Assembly (NCBI RefSeq): GCF_000468755.1
Contig: NZ_AWEZ01000045.1
Coordinates: 124,001 to 188,000, forward strand
Source of the DNA: Olsenella profusa F0195
Lineage (GTDB): Bacteria; Actinomycetota; Coriobacteriia; Coriobacteriales; Atopobiaceae
Direction: 5' to 3'
Length of the DNA stretch: 64,000 nucleotides
Below, piece by piece: positions 22,913-37,046 of the stretch; within the stretch, counting starts at the first letter, position 1; each line of letters begins with the position of its first letter. Made by a program: the position numbers and the translations under genes. Below the pieces are notes generated by a model. That model was not told where the DNA came from. It worked only from the letters and a program-made list of their open reading frames with translations, and searched no databases.

Positions 22913-22944
22913 ATGTAAGGCAATAATATATAGACGTCTTACAT
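22913..22944. promoter_or_regulatory. Inverted repeat upstream of antitoxin gene
   Basis: ATGTAAG (22913-22919) and CTTACAT (22938-22944) are perfect arms around an AT-rich 18-base spacer holding the palindrome AGACGTCT (22932-22939). The right arm abuts the TTGGAGG ribosome site, as expected for an autoregulated toxin-antitoxin promoter. Confidence 0.55.
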
Positions 22945-22955
22945 TGGAGGTAGTT

Positions 22956-23222
22956 ATGGCGTCAGTAACAGTGCGTGTGGACGATGAGACAAAGGCAGAG
23001 GCAACAGCGATTGTGGAGGACTTCGGCTTTGACCTCTCGTCGGTCACGAGGGCTTTCTACCGGCAGATCGTCCGGGAGAACAGAATCCCTCTGAACCTCT
23101 CGTACGGCGAGCCCAACGAGGAGAGCCTGCAAAGCGCAAAGGATGCCGAGGAGATCTTGGCAAAAGGCGGGCATGGGTACCACAGCGCCCGCGAGATGCT
23201 CGACGCGGCACTGAAAGACTAG
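22956..23222 (+). CDS. RelB/DinJ-family antitoxin
   Basis: The 88-residue product begins MASVTVRVDDETKAEATAIV and continues DFGFDLSSVTRAFYRQIVRE, the ribbon-helix-helix DNA-binding fold of RelB/DinJ. The C-terminal half would wrap the toxin. The start at 22956 is set by GGAGG 6 bases upstream rather than the ATG 12 bases earlier. It is followed after 2 bases by a frameshifted RelE/YafQ-type toxin, so it may now be an orphan. Confidence 0.88.
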   Translation: MASVTVRVDDETKAEATAIVEDFGFDLSSVTRAFYRQIVRENRIPLNLSYGEPNEESLQSAKDAEEILAKGGHGYHSAREMLDAALKD

Positions 23223-23224
23223 CG

Positions 23225-23540
23225 ATGAGCAGGCTTGAGCCGGATTACACGCCGGCGTTCTCCCGCGACGTGAAGAGGCTCGCCAAGCGGCACGTGAACC
23301 TCGACCCGCTGGAGGTCATCATCGAGCCTGTGTGTCAGAACGACTCCGAGGCGCTTGACGAGCTCAAGCGCAGGCACAACATGCACACGCTCAAGGACGG
23401 CTGGGCGGGCAGCCATGAGTGGCCACGTAGCTAACGCGGACGACTGGCTACTCATCTGGCGCTCGAGTGACAAGGTGGCAGCCTTCCAGAGAACCGGCAT
23501 CCACGACGAGCTGTTCCGTAGGCAGGCTGCTCGACTTTGA
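23225..23540 (+). pseudogene. RelE/YafQ-type toxin with one-base frameshift
   Basis: The first frame reads MSRLEPDYTPAFSRDVKRLA and LKDGWAGSHE, then stops at 23432-23434. The +1 frame continues HVANADDWLLIWRSSDKVAA and RTGIHDELFR, the conserved C-terminus of YafQ-like mRNA interferases (D-W-L-L-I-W, R-T-G-x-H). Removing one G of the pair at 23421-23422 restores a full-length toxin of about 95 residues, with GSHECHVANADDW across the join. The fault is either a genuine inactivating mutation or a sequencing error. Confidence 0.8.
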
Positions 23541-25981: not shown

Positions 25982-26175
25982 CCTTATGCTGTGGCATTGC
26001 GACCTGTTATGAGCCTGTCTCACATCATCTTGAAATTGTCGCAATTGTGCGGTTGCCTTCTTGGCCTAGATTCTTACATGAGATAGAAAGACATAATCGC
26101 AATTTGATTATCTAATTTCGTTGGTGCCTCTGCTTTTGCCCATGCCAGTCTCATGACGCTGAGGAGGAGGTGGAA

Positions 26176-26568
26176 ATGACGGTCATAACCAACAACCCCC
26201 ATCTGCGGGGAGCGGCAAACGTGCAGTTCGTGGACGGTAGCTTCAGGGATGTCCTCATCAAGGTCAGGGATTTGGTCTATGTCGGACACGAGCTTGTCAG
26301 CCACCCGCTGTTCGCGTCCTTGGGCATGATGTTCTCTCCCTATCGCACAGTCATCCTGAGCGAGCGCAAAGATACGCCCTCTGCCGAGCACGCACGTGTC
26401 GTAGAGGACTCGATTATCTCCTATGACCATGCGACGCAGGAACGTCAGCACGTCGGGCGCAATGACGAGGACTACGCACGGATGGACCTTGAGCTCTACA
26501 GATCTGCCTGTGAGGAGTGCGGGACGGCGCTTCGGGGACGTGAGGTATGCGAGGGGCTTGGGCGATAG
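26176..26568 (+). CDS. grdX: GrdX family protein
   Basis: The 130-residue product starts MTVITNNPHLRG and includes VGHELVSHPLFASLGMMFSP and YRTVILSERKD, resembling the small GrdX protein encoded at the head of glycine/sarcosine/betaine reductase operons. GAGGAGGAGG lies 5 bases before the ATG. The biochemical role of GrdX is not established. Its presence directly before grdE and grdB supports the cluster identity. Confidence 0.8.
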   Translation: MTVITNNPHLRGAANVQFVDGSFRDVLIKVRDLVYVGHELVSHPLFASLGMMFSPYRTVILSERKDTPSAEHARVVEDSIISYDHATQERQHVGRNDEDYARMDLELYRSACEECGTALRGREVCEGLGR

Positions 26569-26662: not shown

Positions 26663-27949
26663 ATGAGACTAGAAGAGGGTTTGATTCACATCAAAGACGT
26701 GGGTGCCGGTGACAGGACGGAAGTGAGGGATGGCATACTGACGGTCAATGTCGACGAGCTGAGGCAGTTGGTCATGCGGGACTCGAAGGTGGCGAGCGTC
26801 TCCGTTGACTTCGCCCGGCCAGGCGAGAGGGTTCGCATCATACCCGTCAAGGACGTCATCGAGCCACGCTACCAGGTGGATCGTGATGGCAACGGCTTCC
26901 CTGGAGCGACGTCGAAGTACGTGCAGTGCGGCAACGGGAAGGTGAACGTCCTCAAGGGTGCCGCCATCGTCACCATCGGTGACATCGTCGGCTTCCAGGA
27001 GGGCGTCATTGACATGTGGGGCGAGGGCGCCAAGTGGACGCCGTTTTCGAAGACCCTCAACATCGTCGTGGACGTCTCCGCGGTCGATGGCCTGGAGCCA
27101 CACGAGCGCGAGACCGTCATGCGGACCGCAGGCCTGACGGCGGCGGAGTACGTCGGTGCGGCGGCAAGGAACGTCACCCCCGACGAGACCAAGGTCTTCG
27201 AGCTAGGTTCCCTCGACGAGGAGGCGGCCAGGTATCCCGACCTTCCCAAGGTCGCCTATGTCGAGATGACCATCTCGCAGGGGCTGCTGCACGACGTGTA
27301 CCTGTACGGCTGTGATGCGAAGCAGCTCATACCGACGTGGCTGCATCCCAACGAGGAGCTGGATGGCGCGGTGGTCTCGGGCAACTGTGTGGCTGCCTGT
27401 GACAAGATAACGACCTACCAGCATCAGAACAACTCACTGATCGAGGATCTGTATGCCCAGCATGGCAAGACCATCAACTACGTCGGCAACATCGTCTCGC
27501 CCGAATTGACGACGTTGGATGGAAAGTTCAGGACCTGTGACTACACGGCCAAGCTTTGCGAACTGCTTGGTGCGGATGGCGTCATCGTCTCTGAGGAGGG
27601 CTATGGCAACCCTGACTCCGACCTGGTCATGATCAGCCAACGGCTCGAGAGGAGGGGCATCAAGACGACGCTCGTCACTGACGAGTGCTCCGGTTGGGAC
27701 GGCAAGAGCCAGCCCTTGGCCGACACCGCACGGGAGGCTGTCGCGGTCGTATCCACCGGTAACGTCAGCAAGGTCGTGGAACTGGGCGTGGCTGACAAGG
27801 TGCTGGGCAACGCGGAGGCGGTTCAAACCCTCGCGGGTGGCTGGCAGGGCTGCATCGACGAGGCGGGCAACATCAAGGCCGAACTGAACGCCGTTATCGG
27901 CTCCACCTCCGAGATCGGGTATCACAACTGCACCGTCGAGCTGCTTTAG
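26663..27949 (+). CDS. grdE: Glycine/sarcosine/betaine reductase component B, alpha/beta proprotein (GrdE type)
   Basis: The 428-residue precursor begins MRLEEGLIHIKDVGAG. In the family it is cleaved autocatalytically before a cysteine to give two subunits, the second carrying a pyruvoyl group that binds the amino substrate as a Schiff base. The cleavage site is visible as VVSGNCVAACDKITTYQHQN. Residues further on (LLGADGVIVSEEGYGNPDSD) also match. It is followed after 11 bases by grdB. Whether the amine is glycine, sarcosine, betaine or another compound cannot be read from sequence alone, so the symbol is by type. Confidence 0.88.
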   Translation: MRLEEGLIHIKDVGAGDRTEVRDGILTVNVDELRQLVMRDSKVASVSVDFARPGERVRIIPVKDVIEPRYQVDRDGNGFPGATSKYVQCGNGKVNVLKGAAIVTIGDIVGFQEGVIDMWGEGAKWTPFSKTLNIVVDVSAVDGLEPHERETVMRTAGLTAAEYVGAAARNVTPDETKVFELGSLDEEAARYPDLPKVAYVEMTISQGLLHDVYLYGCDAKQLIPTWLHPNEELDGAVVSGNCVAACDKITTYQHQNNSLIEDLYAQHGKTINYVGNIVSPELTTLDGKFRTCDYTAKLCELLGADGVIVSEEGYGNPDSDLVMISQRLERRGIKTTLVTDECSGWDGKSQPLADTAREAVAVVSTGNVSKVVELGVADKVLGNAEAVQTLAGGWQGCIDEAGNIKAELNAVIGSTSEIGYHNCTVELL

Positions 27950-27960
27950 GGGGACGTGCC

Positions 27961-29262
27961 ATGAGCAATAAGCGGATAGTCTATTACGTAAACCAGTTCT
28001 TTGGCCAGCTCGGTGGCGAGGAGAAGGCCGATCTCGGCCCCGAGTACCGGGAGGAGGCCGTCGGGCCCGCGGCAGGCTTCCAGGGGCTGCTCAAGGACGA
28101 GGCGGATGTGGTTGGCACCATCATCTGCGGCGACAACTACTTCAACGAGAAGAACGACGATGCCCTGGCCTTCATCCTGAACGTCCTGCGGGAGCAGAAG
28201 CCCGACGTCGTGGTGGCGGGGCCGGCGTTTCTGGCCGGTCGCTATGGCATGGCGTGCATCGGCGTGTGCAAGGCAGCCAAGGGCGAGCTGGGGGTTCCCG
28301 TCGTTACGGGCATGCACGAGGAGAACCCCGGCGTCGACCTGGGCAGGGGGGATGCCATCATCGTCAAGACCGGTGGCTCTGCCGCGGACATGCGCAGGGC
28401 CCTGCCGAAGATGGCGCAGGTCGTGCGGAAGATCTGCAGGGGAGAGGCCATCCGTCCCGATGAGGACGGCTACTTTGCGCAGGGAATTCGTGATACGGTG
28501 TTCGCGGACAAGCGCGGGTCCGTCAGGGCCGTGGAGATGCTGTTGGCACGACTTCACGACGAGCCCTACAAGACCGAGCTCCCCATGCCTACGTTCGACA
28601 GCGTGGATCCAGCTGCGCCCATAGCCGACCTGTCCCATGCGACCATCGCCCTGGTCACCTCCGGTGGCATCGTTCCGAACGGTAACCCCGACCACCTCCA
28701 GTCGGCGTCGGCACAACAGTGGAACAAGTACGACATCACGGGTCAGAAGACGCTCAAGGGCGGCTACTGCACGATACATGGAGGCTTCGACCCAGTCTAT
28801 GCCAACGACGACGCGAACCGCGTCATCCCACTGAACGTCCTGAGCGAACTGAAGGATCAGGGGGTCATCGGTGACATCTACCAGTACTTCTACACGACGA
28901 CCGGCACCGGTACGTCGGTGGCCAACGGCCTTAGGTTCGGGCGGGAGATAGGCAGGGAGCTCAAGGAGGCCGGTGTGGACGGCGTGCTCCTTACCAGCAC
29001 TTGAGGCACCTGCACTCGTTGCGGTGCAACGATGGTAAAAGAGATCGAGCGCTACGGCATCCCTATCGTCCACATGGCCACTATTACCACGATCTCCGAG
29101 TCCGTGGGGGCAAACCGGATCGTTCCGACCGTCGCGATTCCCTATCCCGTGGGCAACCCCACGCTGACGCCACAGGACGAGCATTCCGTCCGTCGCGCGT
29201 TGGTGGAGCAGGCCCTGAGGGCCCTGACGACGGCTGTCGACGGGCCGACGCAGTTCGAGTGA
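27961..29262 (+). CDS. grdB: Selenoprotein B of glycine/betaine/sarcosine-type reductase, UGA read as Sec
   Basis: The frame runs 434 codons with one internal TGA at 29002-29004 (codon 348) that must be read as selenocysteine. Upstream sequence ends DGVLLTST; downstream continues GTCTRCGATMVKEIERYGIP to ALTTAVDGPTQFE. The active site is thus U-G-T-C-T-R-C, the U-x-x-C-x-x-C of GrdB, close to the known Sec position of about 350, and total length (433) fits the family. A hairpin just after the UGA fits a bacterial SECIS. A naive gene call would split this into a truncated protein plus a fragment starting near 29032. With GrdE it forms component B, which passes a carboxymethyl group to selenoprotein A; grdA, grdC and grdD are not in the window. 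Confidence 0.93.
29005..29036 (+). promoter_or_regulatory. SECIS-like hairpin in grdB mRNA
   Basis: Immediately after the UGA, CGTTGC (29017-29022), loop GGT and GCAACG (29026-29031) form a perfect 6-base-pair stem. T29016-A29032 extends it, and ACC/GGT (29008-29010, 29034-29036) may close a lower stem. The apical loop starts 19 nt after the UGA and opens with GG, as known bacterial SECIS elements do (for example the GGUC loop of fdhF). Confidence 0.8.
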
Positions 29263-29425: not shown

Positions 29426-30523
29426 ATGAAAGACTCGAGCTTCCTAAGGATCATCGCGTTCTGTGGATCCTGCATAGCCTTCTACATCGGCGCTGGGTTT
29501 GCCACGATGCAGGAGGTCATGCAGTACGAGGCATCGTATGGTTCCCTCTTCATGGTGGTCATCGCGGTGGCAGCCGCAATCTACGTGTACACCAACCTGT
29601 CCTTCACGACAAACGGCAGCAAGCATCGGCTGACCACCGGTTCCGACGTCTTCACGCTGTACTGCGGCAGATACATCGGTGCATTCTACAAGTGGTTCGC
29701 CACCATCTTCTGCTACATGTGCTTCATCGTCATGTGCGGTGGCGCAAACTCTACCGCCATGCAGCAGTGGGGCCTTCCCAACGGGGTGGGTGCGGTGATT
29801 CTCACCGTGGCCGTCGTCGCGACTGCCGTCTTCGGGCTCGATGGCATCCTGAATGCCTTGGGCAAGATAGGCCCCGTCATCATCGTCTGCTTGCTGGTCG
29901 TTGCTATCATCTCGGTAGTCACGGGCATGCCGGACTATGCCGCGAACCTGCAGAAGGTCGACAGCGGTGTCTTCGACCTGAAGCAGGTGGGCGGCAACAA
30001 CCCCTTCGCATCCGGCGCGTCGTATGGAGGGTTCGTCATCATCTGGTTCTCCACCTTCCTATCCGAGGTAGGCGCTAAGAATAACGTGAAGGAGGTCAAC
30101 AGGGGCGTGTTGCTTTCGACCCTCTTCATCTTTGCGACTGCTGCCATCTGCTGCATCGCGCTCGTCGCGCACATCGACATCACGGCGACCGCGGACATTC
30201 CCACGCTGATGCTTGCGGACAGGATCAACCCCCTGCTCGCCCAGGCATTGGCCATCATCATCTTCTGCGGCATCTACACCACTGCGGTCCCGCTGCTGTG
30301 GACGGGCATCAGTGCCATCTCCAAGGAGGGCACGCCACGCTACAAGCTGCTCACGGTCATTGGAGGCGCGATCGGCTGTCTGGTGTCATCGTTCCTTCCT
30401 TACAAGGACCTGGTCAACGTCCTGTACGGCCTGAACGGCTACCTGGGGTTCATCCTCATTGCCTTCATGATCGTACACGACGTGCGTCACGCACTTGCAA
30501 CGAGAAGGTCGACCGTACAGTAA
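29426..30523 (+). CDS. YkvI-type multi-pass membrane transporter
   Basis: The 365-residue product has about ten membrane helices, starting FLRIIAFCGSCIAFYIGAGF with the GAGFATMQE motif near the N-terminus. That motif and overall pattern match the YkvI group (COG3949) of the APC/LeuT-like superfamily. It follows grdB after 163 bases on the same strand and is a good candidate for import of the reductase substrate (an amino acid or methylated amine). The ribosome site is weak (GGGA). Substrate is inferred only from context. Confidence 0.8.
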   Translation: MKDSSFLRIIAFCGSCIAFYIGAGFATMQEVMQYEASYGSLFMVVIAVAAAIYVYTNLSFTTNGSKHRLTTGSDVFTLYCGRYIGAFYKWFATIFCYMCFIVMCGGANSTAMQQWGLPNGVGAVILTVAVVATAVFGLDGILNALGKIGPVIIVCLLVVAIISVVTGMPDYAANLQKVDSGVFDLKQVGGNNPFASGASYGGFVIIWFSTFLSEVGAKNNVKEVNRGVLLSTLFIFATAAICCIALVAHIDITATADIPTLMLADRINPLLAQALAIIIFCGIYTTAVPLLWTGISAISKEGTPRYKLLTVIGGAIGCLVSSFLPYKDLVNVLYGLNGYLGFILIAFMIVHDVRHALATRRSTVQ

Positions 30524-30665
30524 GCAGGGCTGGGGCCTGCCCACGGCAGGGCCCGGGACCCAGGTTGCAAGAAGGGAGATGAGGGACCGGAGCAATCGAC
30601 ATGCTTCATCCAGGGGGTCCGCGCGCGGGCCCGTCACGCCACTTCTACGAGGAGGATCTCACATC

Positions 30666-31046
30666 ATGGCCAAGAGAATCGCAACGGACGGCGCCCCGGC
30701 GGCTATCGGACCCTATTCGCAGGCGATCAAGGTCGGCAAGACCCTCTACGTCTCGGGGATGATGCCGATCGACCCGGAGACGGGAGCGTTCGCCGGCACC
30801 ACCATAGAGGCGCAGGCCGAGCAGATTATGAAGAACATCGGCTCAGTGCTGCGGGAGGCCGGCTTTGGCTTCCAAGATGTGGTGAAAGCCACCTGCTTCC
30901 TCTCCGACATGAATGACTTCGCAAAGTTCAACGAGGTCTACGCCGGCTACTTTGTCAGCCTTCCCGCGCGTTCCTGTGTGGCAGTGAGGCAGATTCCCAA
31001 AGGCGCCCTTGCAGAGATCGAGGTCATCGCCGTCAAGGAGCAGTAG
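30666..31046 (+). CDS. RidA-family enamine/imine deaminase
   Basis: The 126-residue product has the RidA signature AAIGPYSQAIKVGKTLYVSG, the conserved Arg in LPARSCVAVRQIPKGALAEI, and the final glutamate segment IEVIAVKEQ. GAGGAGG lies 9 bases before the ATG at 30666. RidA proteins hydrolyse reactive enamines/imines released by PLP enzymes. Its position after the grd genes and transporter suggests it clears an imine formed during use of the same substrate. Confidence 0.92.
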   Translation: MAKRIATDGAPAAIGPYSQAIKVGKTLYVSGMMPIDPETGAFAGTTIEAQAEQIMKNIGSVLREAGFGFQDVVKATCFLSDMNDFAKFNEVYAGYFVSLPARSCVAVRQIPKGALAEIEVIAVKEQ

Positions 31047-31148
31047 CGTCCGTGCATGGATCGCACCTGTCTGGCTCGCGTCCTTGGCAGGGGTGCTGCG
31101 GCCAGCAGCGGTGGACGTGCTATCCTGTTAATCCACCTGTCGATACAT

Positions 31149-31177
31149 GAGCCGTACGACCCAAGGCCGTACGGCTC
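31149..31177 (+). promoter_or_regulatory. Strong leader hairpin of valS
   Basis: GAGCCGTACG (31149-31158) and CGTACGGCTC (31168-31177) are perfect 10-base arms. Inside, after an A-C mismatch, CC/GG pairs close a CAA loop. It ends 8 bases before the AAGGGG ribosome site of valS. A TATCCT-like -10 box is at about 31121. No T-run follows, so it is more likely a leader control or stability element than a terminator. Confidence 0.65.
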
Positions 31178-31197
31178 ACAGCTATGAAGGGGCCATC

Positions 31198-33903
31198 GTG
31201 GAAGAGATGCCAAAGACCTACGACCCGGGTGCCGTCGAGCCCGAGCTCATCGAAGCATGGATGAACGCGGGGTGCTATCAGCGCTCCAAGGGCACAGGCG
31301 ACTGTACTGTCACCATACCGCCCCCCAACGTCACCGGCATCCTCCACATGGGCCACGCCATGGATGACACCATCCAGGACACCTACGTGCGCTACAGCCG
31401 CATGCGCGGCCGCTCCACCCGTTGGATCCTGGGTACCGACCACGCCGGCATCGCCACGCAGACCAAGGTGGACAAGAAGCTCAAGGAGGAGGGTATCTCT
31501 CGTCTTCAGATGGGGCGCGAGAGGTTCCTCGAGGCCTGTTGGGACTGGCGCCGCGAATACGGAGGCACCATCGTCAACCAGATCAGGCGCATGGGCTGCT
31601 CCATCGACTTCGACGACGAGAAGTTCACGATGAGTCCCGAGTACGCCCGGGCCGTGCGCAAGGTGTTCTGCGACTGGTACCATGATGGCCTCATCTACCG
31701 CGGCAGGCGCATCGTCAACTGGTGTCCCAGCTGCAAGACGGCCATCAGCGACGACGAGGCCGAGTACCGGGGCGAGAAGGGTCACCTCTGGTACCTGCGC
31801 TACCCCTTGACCGAGCCCGTTGACGGCATCGATCACATCACGGTGGCCACCACGCGACCCGAGACCATGCTCGGCGACACGGGCATCGCCGTCTCGCCGG
31901 AGGATCCGGAGAAAGCCAAGCTCGTGGGCAAGACCGTGATGCTTCCCATCGTGAACAGGGAGATTCCAATCTTCTCCGACTGGCATGTGGACGTGGGCTT
32001 TGGCACCGGTTTCGTGAAGGTCACGCCCGCGCACGACCCCAACGACTATGCCATGGGCCAGGCGCATGACCTGCCGCAGATCAACGTCTTCGATGCAACC
32101 GCCCACGTAGTCGAAGGCTATGGCGCGTTCAGCGGCATGGATCGCGACGAGGCGCGTGACGCCATCGTCGTCTGGTTCGACGAGCATGGCCTCCTGGAGA
32201 GGGTCGAGGAGCTCGACCACTCCGTCATGCACTGCTACCGCTGCGGCACGGCGCTGGAGCCCTGGCTCTCCGAGCAGTGGTTCGTTGCCGTGGACAGGCT
32301 CAAGGGCCGCGCCACCGAGGTCGTGCGCTCGGGGGAGGTCACGTTCCACCCCACGCGCTGGACGGACACCTACCTCACCTGGATGGACAACCTCAAGGAC
32401 TGGTGTATCAGTCGCCAGCTGTGGTGGGGCCACCGCATCCCCGTGTTCTACTGCGACGACTGCGGCTGGCAGGACGCCCTCATGGAGGATGTCGACGCCT
32501 GCCCCAACTGCGGCGGTCACCACGTGCACCAGGACGAGGACGTGCTGGACACCTGGTTCAGCTCGCAGCTGTGGACCTTCGCTACGCAGGGCTGGCCCGA
32601 CCACCCCGAGCAGATGCGGGGCCATCACCCCACCAAGGTCCTCGTCACCGCCCGCGACATCATCGCGCTGTGGGTGGCGCGCATGATCATGAGTTCGCTC
32701 TACTTCACCGACGAGATCCCCTTCCATGACGTCTACATCTACGCGACCATCCTCGCCAAGGACGGCAGCCGCATGAGCAAGTCCAAGGGCAACGGCGTGG
32801 ATCCCATGGATCTCATGGAGAAGTACGGCGCGGACGCCATGCGCCACAACCTGCTGACCCTCATCACCAACAATCAGGACGTCAAGTTCGACGCCAACCT
32901 GGACAAGAGGACCCATGCCCTCATCGACAGCCCCCGCACCGAGCAGGCCAAGGGCTTCGTGACCAAGATCTGGAACGCGAGTCGCTTCGTGCGGATGAAC
33001 CTCGACGGCTACACGCCCGGCGAGCCCAAGGCCGAGACCCCCGAGGACGCCTGGATGCTCTCGCGCCTTGCAAGGGTCGTGGCTGAGTCCACCTGCGAGC
33101 TCGAGGACTACACCTTTGGTGACTACGCCCGCGGCCTGCAGTCCTTCTTCTGGAACGAGGTCTGCGACTGGTACATAGAGCTCTGCAAGGGACGCCTGCT
33201 GGACGGCACGTCCAGGGAGCGCCTGCAGGTGCAGCGCAACCTCGTCTTCGTGCTGGACACGTCCCTGCGCCTGCTGCACCCCATGATGCCGTTCGTGACC
33301 GAGAGGGTCTGGGACGCGCTGCCCGAAAGCGTTCTTGGTCGCGCGTTGGCAGACGGCGAGGGGGAGGCCCGCTTCCTCATGCTGGCGGCCTGGCCCGAGC
33401 CCGACGACTTTGACCAGTTTGAGAACGACAGGGCCGAGTACGACTTTGACCTCGCCAAGCGCGTGATCTCTGCGGTGCGCTCCACGCGCGCACGCTATCG
33501 TCTGTCTCCCAAGGCCGAGCTCGACGTTGCCGTGCACAGCTCCGTGGACGACGTCCCCGCCCTCGAGGCGCAGCGCGGCTTCATCTGCTCCGTGGGTCAC
33601 GTGGACCAGCTCGCGCTCGGTGCTGCGCAGGACAAGCCCCAGGGCTCCGTCTCCGTGTCCGATGGCACGCTGGAGGTCTTTGTGGCCCTGGGCGGCCTCG
33701 TCGACCTCGCTGCCGAGACCAGGCGCCTGGAGAAGGAGCTCGAAAAGGCGCAGGGGGAGCTTGCCAGCGTGACGCGGACCCTCTCCAACGAGGGCTTCAT
33801 CGCCAAGGCGGCGTCCGAGGTCATTCAGAGGAAGCGTGGCCAGAAGGCCGAGCTCGAGCGGGCCATCGCCCAGCTCAAGGCCCAGGTGGCCGACCTGGCA
33901 TAG
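31198..33903 (+). CDS. valS: Valyl-tRNA synthetase
   Basis: The product is 901 residues from the GTG at 31198, which has GAAGGGG 5 bases upstream (an ATG at 31207 is an alternative). The HIGH motif is in PPPNVTGILHMGHAMDD and KMSKS in DGSRMSKSKGNGVDP. Cys pairs in CDDCGW and CPNCGG suggest a zinc knuckle in the editing/insertion region. The C-terminal coiled-coil arm typical of ValRS is visible (ETRRLEKELEKAQGELASV). It charges tRNA-Val and edits Thr. A strong hairpin precedes it. Confidence 0.97.
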   Translation: MEEMPKTYDPGAVEPELIEAWMNAGCYQRSKGTGDCTVTIPPPNVTGILHMGHAMDDTIQDTYVRYSRMRGRSTRWILGTDHAGIATQTKVDKKLKEEGISRLQMGRERFLEACWDWRREYGGTIVNQIRRMGCSIDFDDEKFTMSPEYARAVRKVFCDWYHDGLIYRGRRIVNWCPSCKTAISDDEAEYRGEKGHLWYLRYPLTEPVDGIDHITVATTRPETMLGDTGIAVSPEDPEKAKLVGKTVMLPIVNREIPIFSDWHVDVGFGTGFVKVTPAHDPNDYAMGQAHDLPQINVFDATAHVVEGYGAFSGMDRDEARDAIVVWFDEHGLLERVEELDHSVMHCYRCGTALEPWLSEQWFVAVDRLKGRATEVVRSGEVTFHPTRWTDTYLTWMDNLKDWCISRQLWWGHRIPVFYCDDCGWQDALMEDVDACPNCGGHHVHQDEDVLDTWFSSQLWTFATQGWPDHPEQMRGHHPTKVLVTARDIIALWVARMIMSSLYFTDEIPFHDVYIYATILAKDGSRMSKSKGNGVDPMDLMEKYGADAMRHNLLTLITNNQDVKFDANLDKRTHALIDSPRTEQAKGFVTKIWNASRFVRMNLDGYTPGEPKAETPEDAWMLSRLARVVAESTCELEDYTFGDYARGLQSFFWNEVCDWYIELCKGRLLDGTSRERLQVQRNLVFVLDTSLRLLHPMMPFVTERVWDALPESVLGRALADGEGEARFLMLAAWPEPDDFDQFENDRAEYDFDLAKRVISAVRSTRARYRLSPKAELDVAVHSSVDDVPALEAQRGFICSVGHVDQLALGAAQDKPQGSVSVSDGTLEVFVALGGLVDLAAETRRLEKELEKAQGELASVTRTLSNEGFIAKAASEVIQRKRGQKAELERAIAQLKAQVADLA

Positions 33904-34035
33904 CCGCCGCGCGCGTGGCCGAGGCCCACCCCCCGCTCGGTGGGATGGGCCCTTGCGCTCCATGGGACCATGTCGGGCGGATGATTGGCCGCCGTGGGTC
34001 CTATGCGGTACGGTTGACAGGGGAGAGGAGGGACC

Positions 34036-34611
34036 ATGGCAAGCGCAAAGGAGGAGCTGCGCGGGCGGCTGCTTCGACAGCGGGGTGCGCTGGCGCCACG
34101 CGAACGCTCGGCAATCGACGACGCCATCGCCCGACACGTGCTCTCCCTTCCAGAGTTCCATGACGCTAGGGTCGTGCTATGCTACCTCTCCATGGACTCC
34201 GAGGTGGAGACGCGCGACGTCATCGAGGCGTCGTGGCGGGTGGGCAAGGTGGTCGCACTGCCGCGTGTGATGGGGGCACATAGCATGCGCTGGTATCGCG
34301 TGGATGGCCCCGATGGGCTTGCCGCGCTGGAGCGTAGCCCCTTTGGGGTGCTGGAGCCGGTGGCGGATTCCGCACGGGAGGTGGCACCGGACGCCGTGAC
34401 GCTCGTCCTCGTCCCTGGCCTCGCCTTCGATCGCGTCGGCCAGCGCCTGGGCTATGGCGGCGGCTTCTACGACGTGTTCCTCGCGGACTTCGTGGGCCCC
34501 TCCATCGGCCTGTGCCGAAGCGCCGCCCTCGTCGAGACCCTGCCGTGCACGGAGCCACACGACCTTCCCGTGCAGAAGGTCGTGACGGAACGCGGCGTCG
34601 TGGGGGCCTAG
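34036..34611 (+). CDS. 5-formyltetrahydrofolate cyclo-ligase family protein
   Basis: The 191-residue product opens KEELRGRLLRQRGALAPRER and carries the C-terminal signature VPGLAFDRVGQRLGYGGGFY-D, the ATP/folate-binding segment of the family. It recycles 5-formyl-THF to 5,10-methenyl-THF, connecting to the fhs-fchA-folD block 4 kb on. GAGAGGAGGG precedes the ATG. It is convergent with the radical SAM gene. Confidence 0.93.
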   Translation: MASAKEELRGRLLRQRGALAPRERSAIDDAIARHVLSLPEFHDARVVLCYLSMDSEVETRDVIEASWRVGKVVALPRVMGAHSMRWYRVDGPDGLAALERSPFGVLEPVADSAREVAPDAVTLVLVPGLAFDRVGQRLGYGGGFYDVFLADFVGPSIGLCRSAALVETLPCTEPHDLPVQKVVTERGVVGA

Positions 34612-35880: not shown

Positions 35881-35914
35881 GCCATGCGTGTGCCCACATG
35901 GGGAGGGAGAACAC

Positions 35915-37046
35915 ATGAACAGCTTGTTTGACCGTACCAGCTTGGGAACCATGAAGCCCAAGAACCGTATCTTCATGTCACCTATGGGCACGACGGGGGA
36001 GTCCGATGGCTCCTACCGCGATGAGGGCATCGACTACTTTGAGGAGCATGCCAGGGGAGGGGTCAGGCTCATCATAGCGGGCGCCAACATGGTTTCCACC
36101 AAGTGCGAACCGTTTCCATACCATTGACGAGGAAAAGGAGATGGCATGGGTTCTCGAGGGGGCTGGTGTGGCTGCATTGCATGTGGATACGGGTCGCTAT
36201 GAGGAGTGTCTCCAGGCCATTGCGACCATCTATCCCAAGCCGGGTCACAAGCTTGACGTGCAGCATGCTATCAAGGAAGCTGCTAACGTGCTCGTGATCG
36301 GTGGTAGCCCCGCCGATGTTGCGGCGGCCATCACCGCACGCAGGCGCGGCTACTATGTCGAACTTTGGGAGAAGGAGGACCGACAGGGGGATAACCTCTG
36401 GGCTGCGGGTGGTCCCGTCTTCAAGACCGACATCCTCAAGCTCATCAGGTATCAGGTCCTGCAAGGTAACAAGCTGGGCGTCAAGCTGTGCCTCAATCGC
36501 TCGGCCGATGAGCACAACGTGTGCGGGGGCATCTGGGACAAGGTTATTCCTGCCGCAGGCGCCTCTCCCGCCCTGCCTCCCATCAAGGGCGTTGTCATCA
36601 CCGGTGGTGGGCTGGCGGGCACCGAGGCGGCGTGCGACATCGCAGCTACGGCGGAGAGCGTCACCATTCTTGAGATGCTGCCAGATATCCTCCTTGCGTC
36701 GGAGGGGTGCCCCAACAGCGGCCAGCACCTGCGCACGATGGCCGGGAATCGCGACATTCACGTGATGGTCGGCGCCACGGTCGGGGAGATTGGCCCTTCG
36801 GGCGTCACCTCTACGAAAGGGATGGCGAGATCCATACGATTGCCTGTGACACTGTGCTCAATGCTGCTGGCTTTCGGACGGGAGACCAGCTCGAGGATGT
36901 GCTTGAGGATGCCCATGATGACGTGTCCATCGTGGGAGATGCTGTCCGCCCGTGCAAGATCCTTGATGCCGTTCACGAGGGATGCCACGCCATCCGCGTT
37001 ATGGGGTAATCTGCTATCGGATGCGGCGGGCGGGCTGGACGCTTGA
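35915..37046 (+). pseudogene. Decayed Old-Yellow-Enzyme/enoate-reductase-like flavoprotein
   Basis: The start is sound (GGGAGGGAG before the ATG; MNSLFDRTSLGTMKPKNRIF and MSPMGTTGE are the OYE N-terminus). The frame shifts near 36120, with IDEEKEMAW then in another frame. There are large internal losses: the TIM barrel jumps from GAGVAALHVDTG to the FAD/NAD domains VLVIGGSPADVAAAITARRR and VVITGGGLAGTEAACDIAAT. A further shift near 36815 puts the C-terminus (NAAGFRTGDQLEDVL, VSIVGDAVRPCKILDAVHEG) in a third frame. The normal family length is about 650 residues; about 365 remain. The gene is dead. Confidence 0.85.

Follow-up and report, generated by a model that had tools for sequence, protein, structure and literature searches.

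Predicted selenocysteine decoding in a component B subunit, probably of sarcosine type, from Olsenella profusa F0195

A GrdB-family gene of Olsenella profusa F0195 carries an in-frame UGA at codon 348, and the results of this analysis support the decoding of this codon as selenocysteine (Sec). The window, i.e. the whole 64,000-nucleotide stretch of DNA that was analysed, corresponds to C45:124001-188000 of a genome of 2.72 Mb (99% complete). We give a probability of about 0.85 to the joint reading that the gene encodes a Sec-containing subunit of component B and that this component acts on an amine substrate other than betaine. The substrate is likely to be sarcosine, which would be converted to methylamine and acetyl phosphate. 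Overall, the gene belongs to a well-known enzyme family, without unusual traits, and Sec decoding in this family is textbook biology; the part worth keeping is the refinement of its assignment, probably to a sarcosine-type clade that has no curated model of its own.

Results

The UGA codon and the continuity of the frame

The features around the UGA codon are as follows.
27961-29262, + strand: grdB-family gene (probably sarcosine-type, grdF-like) for component B subunit beta with predicted Sec348, based on PF07355, TIGR01918 and the tree
29002-29004, + strand: UGA codon 348, predicted selenocysteine in the motif U-G-T-C-T-R-C, based on TGA in 96/96 homologous copies
29005-29042, + strand: SECIS element (RF01990 SECIS_4), Rfam score 64.1 bits (gathering score 38)
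29017-29022/29026-29031, + strand: SECIS apical stem with loop GGU at 29023-29025, based on local folding, codon usage and pairing over 82 sequences

Reading the sequence base for base placed TGA at codon 348 of the frame 27961-29262, the portion up to the TGA being 27961-29004. When UGA is read as Sec, 85 in-frame codons follow up to the stop TGA at 29260-29262, and the product has 433 amino acids; the codon number and the 85-codon continuation given in the preliminary description match the sequence exactly. The motif at the Sec residue is UGTCTRCG (context ST-U-GTCTRCG), and the U-G-T-C-T-R-C that had been proposed to arise by readthrough is present at residues 348-354. The product scored 510 bits against PF07355 (cut-off 22) and 599 bits against TIGR01918 (cut-off 65.45), the latter match covering residues 5-433. 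A PDB sequence search returned only spurious pentatricopeptide-repeat matches on a short segment, and the AlphaFold model of GrdB (pTM 0.54) was uninformative, its PDB matches having TM values of at most 0.25 on the query.

The codon was compared among 96 full-length homologous copies from several phyla, comprising 79 related loci from a scan of ca. 85,000 genomes, paralogues and named references. All 96 had TGA at the aligned codon, no other stop and an intact C-terminus, and neither a split frame nor a separately translated C-terminal part, which had been named as evidence against readthrough, was found among them. Few or no Cys forms of GrdA and GrdB were reported in a published survey (PMC1794560). 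The expectation that automatic annotation would split the gene does not necessarily hold, as the annotated P. acidaminophilum and E. gilvus records contain grdF and grdH as full-length coding sequences.

The SECIS hairpin

The hairpin CGTTGC-GGT-GCAACG lies at exactly 29017-29031, as had been described. Its loop, previously placed 19 nt after the UGA, starts at the 19th nucleotide, with 18 nt in between. SECIS_4 matched over its full length at 29005-29042, with three of the 38 positions differing from the consensus. In the published bSECIS model, the spacing is 16-37 nt, the upper stem has 4-16 bp, the loop has 3-9 nt with a G within the first two positions, and the minimum free energy (MFE) is -7.5 kcal/mol or lower (PMC13188914). 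The window hairpin, with the loop GGU, a stem of 6-7 bp and a spacing of 18 nt, fits these values, the energy being that of the local fold, and together with the Rfam match this supports its identity as a SECIS.

Since the SECIS_4 model was probably derived from genes of the GrdB family, a match to it alone could mirror the conservation of the protein, and evidence at the nucleotide level was therefore sought. Local folding gave -8.3 kcal/mol (29014-29045) and -10.6 kcal/mol (29008-29045), with the SECIS stem as the MFE structure in both. When 29002-29045 was folded alone, an alternative hairpin was optimal (-11.3) and the energy was not unusual compared with shuffled sequences (z = -1.08), showing that thermodynamics by itself would not prove a SECIS. 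The SECIS stem-loop became the optimum once the fold excluded the UGA together with the next three bases, which is nearer to the situation of a ribosome on the codon. Given the protein sequence and local codon usage, the probability of a 6-bp stem was ca. 0.024, and the stretch uses locally rare codons, namely CGT (11% of Arg), GCA (12% of Ala), GTA (4% of Val) and AAA (5% of Lys). Of the stem pairs, the inner five were kept in 82 of 82 distinct homologous stretches and the outermost in 65; the Ala codon ended in A in 81 of the 82, although the G+C contents of the genomes differ widely. A divergent paralogue (L118), whose protein motif is UGTSSRGG instead of UGTCTRCG, kept all six pairs with other bases (CGCGGA-GGT-TCCGTG).

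Selenium machinery in the genome

The prediction that selA, selB, selC and selD would be encoded elsewhere in the genome was borne out for all four. The selC gene (tRNA-Sec, anticodon TCA) is located at C60:43379-43469 (73.1 bits), and SelA, SelB and SelD scored 546, 368 and 387 against cut-offs of 268, 242 and 125, respectively. A further tRNA-Sec match above the Rfam cut-off on C73 was a tRNA-Ser according to ARAGORN. YedF and a putative selenium transporter of the YedE family are also encoded, as are GrdA (one TGA), GrdC and GrdD, on another contig than the window unit. The selD gene itself (L023:17602-18651) contains an in-frame TGA within AAG-U-AAK, and the selenophosphate synthetase of this genome thus appears to be a selenoprotein as well. 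Rfam detected no SECIS in selD or grdA, which means only that no Rfam family covers these. With TGA in 96/96 copies, the SECIS_4 match and the full Sec machinery, the readthrough originally proposed at codon 348 stands, and predicted Sec decoding of this GrdB-family protein is well supported.

The component B unit and its neighbours

The unit and the genes adjoining the grdB-family gene comprise the following.
26170-26568, + strand: grdX (NF038093, 92 bits, cut-off 40), with an uncertain start at GTG 26170 or ATG 26176
26663-27949, + strand: grdE/grdG-type gene for component B subunit alpha proprotein (PF09338, 621 bits)
29426-30523, + strand: APC/LeuT-fold membrane transporter, a candidate substrate importer, based on an AlphaFold2 model and PDB matches
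30663-31046, + strand: RidA-family gene adjoining the unit (TIGR00004, 161 bits, cut-off 106)

The unit thus has the order grdX, grdE-type, grdB-type and transporter. It has no grdA, grdC or grdD nearby and must therefore borrow them from the C60 locus; sharing of GrdA, GrdC and GrdD is assumed where a genome has several component B pairs (PMC10838667). Scanning the unit for promoters and terminators gave nothing above chance. grdX was present at 67 of 72 loci of the clade described below. The RidA-family gene may have a role in the unit; at two loci from Eggerthellaceae, grdB has a RidA-like gene next to it on the opposite strand.

The alpha subunit (428 amino acids) has the pyruvoyl-processing Asn-Cys in SGNCVAACDK (Asn241-Cys242). 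SGNC occurs in the glycine and sarcosine types and SGSF in the betaine types, and the Asn-Cys processing site is absent from the betaine and fluoroacetate types. This site is expected for amine substrates (PMC10838667), and its retention in the window partner is in keeping with an amine that can form a Schiff base.

The transporter had no Pfam or NCBIfam match. Its AlphaFold2 model (pLDDT 88.5, pTM 0.87) had APC-superfamily (LeuT-fold) transporters as best PDB matches, and the protein may be YkvI-like. Of the clade loci, 68 had 1.3 kb or more of sequence behind grdB. One of two recognised transporter families was present at 40 of these, namely this family alone at 26, the neurotransmitter-sodium-symporter family alone at 13 and both at one, and neither was present at the other 28, which suggests that the alternating transporter families import the same substrate. 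Searching the literature for this transporter family together with sarcosine gave no relevant result.

Other observations were made in the window. A YafQ-type toxin gene (23225-23540, + strand) is split over two frames and looks disrupted; it adjoins a RelB-type antitoxin gene (22944-23222). NADH:flavin oxidoreductase-type remnants in several frames (Oxidored_FMN and Pyr_redox fragments) at 35888-37046 (+ strand) look like a pseudogene. Long antisense ORFs at 27946-29184 (- strand, 412 amino acids) and 31120-34161 (- strand, 1013 amino acids) lie opposite conserved genes and showed no sign of being genes themselves; such ORFs are expected because of the high G+C of third codon positions.

Assignment of the subtype

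Three GrdB-type genes, each with one TGA and a SECIS_4 match, are encoded in the genome. The copy at C60:11694 exceeded the betaine GrdH cut-off (791 vs 775) and is followed by trxB, trxA and a BCCT transporter gene. The copy at C60:27029 exceeded the glycine cut-off (658 vs 602); it lies after grdX-grdE and is followed by an alanine/glycine-symporter-like gene, grdA, grdC and grdD. The window protein stayed below the cut-offs for glycine GrdB (TIGR01917, 545.9 vs an equivalog cut-off of 602.2), sarcosine GrdF (NF040794, 598.4 vs 800) and betaine GrdH (NF040795, 537.1 vs 775), and its partner has SGNC, not SGSF. The alpha subunit was also below the GrdG cut-off (534 vs 780). No clade member tested reached the NF040794 cut-off, while some members, such as L043, reached that of glycine GrdB (609 vs 602). 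The name grdB used in the preliminary description is thus correct for the family but not in the strict sense of glycine reductase, in view of the score (546 vs 602) and the different clade.

In a maximum-likelihood tree of 95 sequences, the window gene fell into a 69-row clade (support 100/99) apart from the glycine and betaine clades, and the alpha-subunit tree agreed. This clade includes the second copy of T. creatinophila and Formimonas GrdF (L043). The named GrdF of P. acidaminophilum, which shares 51.5% identity with the window protein, falls within the glycine clade. GrdB-type genes over the cut-off were present in only five of 140 genomes of the bacterial family and in none of three other genomes of the same genus; the trait is patchy in the family.

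Single GrdB-like selenoproteins with UGTSTRCG were observed at L086-L091 and L096, in Betaproteobacteria, Rokuibacteriota, Tectomicrobia and other lineages; the alpha subunits at L086 and L088, the two checked, are without the Asn-Cys site. Fluoroacetate reductase has been described from Synergistota. A further component B pair was observed in uncultured Olsenella RUG001 (G002:C88; L151:80-2614, - strand), whose alpha subunit exceeded the curated cut-off for the fluoroacetate reductase FarE (698 vs 675) and whose beta subunit has UGTSSRGG without CxxC, as reported for FarB (PMC10838667).

Evidence on the substrate

Both glycine and sarcosine reductase were reported for Tissierella creatinophila (PMC5364220). 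Full-length Sec-GrdB genes number only two in this organism: the first lies in a standard trxBA-grdE-A-B-C-D glycine reductase operon, the other in the clade of the window gene. At the Formimonas locus L043, the genes run trxB, trxA, grdA, grdC, grdD, grdX, grdE, grdB, an order that matches that of Ga0180325_114795-803s, the proteome cluster named sarcosine reductase. This cluster was strongly raised on glycine betaine, and the fate proposed for sarcosine was cleavage into methylamine and acetate (PMC9768040). The putative sarcosine assignments in these two organisms rest on elimination or expression. The clade neighbours include isochorismatase-fold (N-carbamoylsarcosine-amidase-like) genes at 13 loci, D-hydantoinase genes at nine and MttB-type methyltransferase genes at 11, and these give routes to sarcosine that start from creatinine, N-methylhydantoin or betaine. 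The O. profusa genome showed neither a close hydantoinase nor a close carbamoylsarcosine amidase (best identities, 34% and 30%), and sarcosine would therefore come from outside or via another route.

Discussion

The clade, its neighbour genes, the published proteomics and the Asn-Cys site of the partner indicate that the window copy is probably of sarcosine type and not of glycine type. The mechanism through component B, GrdA and component C is established for the family and is applied here to the window protein by homology. SelB and Sec-tRNA, guided by the SECIS immediately after the codon, would decode UGA-348 as Sec. The alpha partner (26663-27949) would cleave itself at Asn-Cys to form a pyruvoyl group, and the alpha/beta component B would bind the amine substrate as a Schiff base. 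An attack of Sec348 on the alpha carbon would then release the amine, and the carboxymethyl group would be handed to selenoprotein A (GrdA) and then to component C (GrdC, GrdD), which would yield acetyl phosphate and, from it, ATP. Import of sarcosine by the LeuT-fold transporter encoded alongside is slightly favoured.

Other readings of the locus have to be weighed. That UGA 348 is a true stop, leaving a truncated or split gene and a hairpin that is a by-product of the protein sequence, is hardly credible; while a downstream ORF starting with ATG (29032-29262) and the ordinary fold of the whole 44-nt stretch (z = -1.08) would suit it, this reading conflicts with the TGA in 96/96 copies of several phyla with intact C-termini and unsplit frames, with the complete Sec machinery, and with the rare codons and compensated stem pairs.

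As to the substrate, the unit might be a second glycine reductase component B, i.e. a paralogue with different regulation or affinity that is not specific for sarcosine. This is unlikely: although the Asn-Cys processing type is the same as in glycine GrdE and L043 (609 vs 602) is among the clade members that attain the cut-off for glycine GrdB, the clade is separate with strong support on both subunits, its neighbour genes lead to sarcosine, and the genome already has a glycine-type copy with a glycine-symporter-like neighbour. A different primary or secondary amine, so far unassigned to this enzyme family, is quite improbable as the substrate. The failure of all three substrate-specific cut-offs, a transporter outside the named families and the ability of component B to switch substrate, as in fluoroacetate reductase (PMC10838667), are consistent with such an amine, but the clade context and the expression in Formimonas favour sarcosine. 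The difference between this clade and the GrdF lineage of P. acidaminophilum may mean that sarcosine reduction arose twice; alternatively, the substrates may differ. It is conceivable, though somewhat less likely than not, that the clade is a separately evolved sarcosine reductase, not derived from the P. acidaminophilum GrdGF lineage, with the LeuT-fold partner as sarcosine importer.

The readthrough gives a further well-supported selenoprotein from an Atopobiaceae-type actinobacterium and a clear case for curators. The useful new point is that the present curated models leave a whole component B clade without a substrate name. Members of this clade occur in Tissierellia, Clostridia, Sporomusa, Desulfosporosinus and Coriobacteriia. 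The gene context links the clade to sarcosine derived from creatinine or betaine, a route to methylamine, and pairs it with an uncharacterised transporter family that is open to direct testing.

Among known systems, the SECIS_4 family of Rfam (RF01990) resembles the window element over its full length, with nothing notable that differs. GrdB of glycine reductase (TIGR01917, PF07355) belongs to the same family as the window protein and shares the UxxCxxC motif, the SECIS position and an Asn-Cys-containing alpha partner, whereas the window copy is in a separate clade and is without grdA, grdC and grdD beside it. GrdG/GrdF of Peptoclostridium acidaminophilum (NF040793, NF040794) probably have the same substrate and chemistry, with the Asn-Cys site in GrdG and UGTCTRCG in GrdF; unlike the window pair, they fall in the glycine clade and are accompanied by a BCCT transporter. 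The Formimonas cluster also carries trxBA, grdA and grdCD, and the T. creatinophila locus carries grdA, none of which is in the window unit, but the GrdGF predicted as sarcosine reductase in Candidatus Formimonas warabiya and the second T. creatinophila GrdB belong to the same clade on both subunits, share 64-67% identity and have the order grdX-grdE-grdB as in the window.
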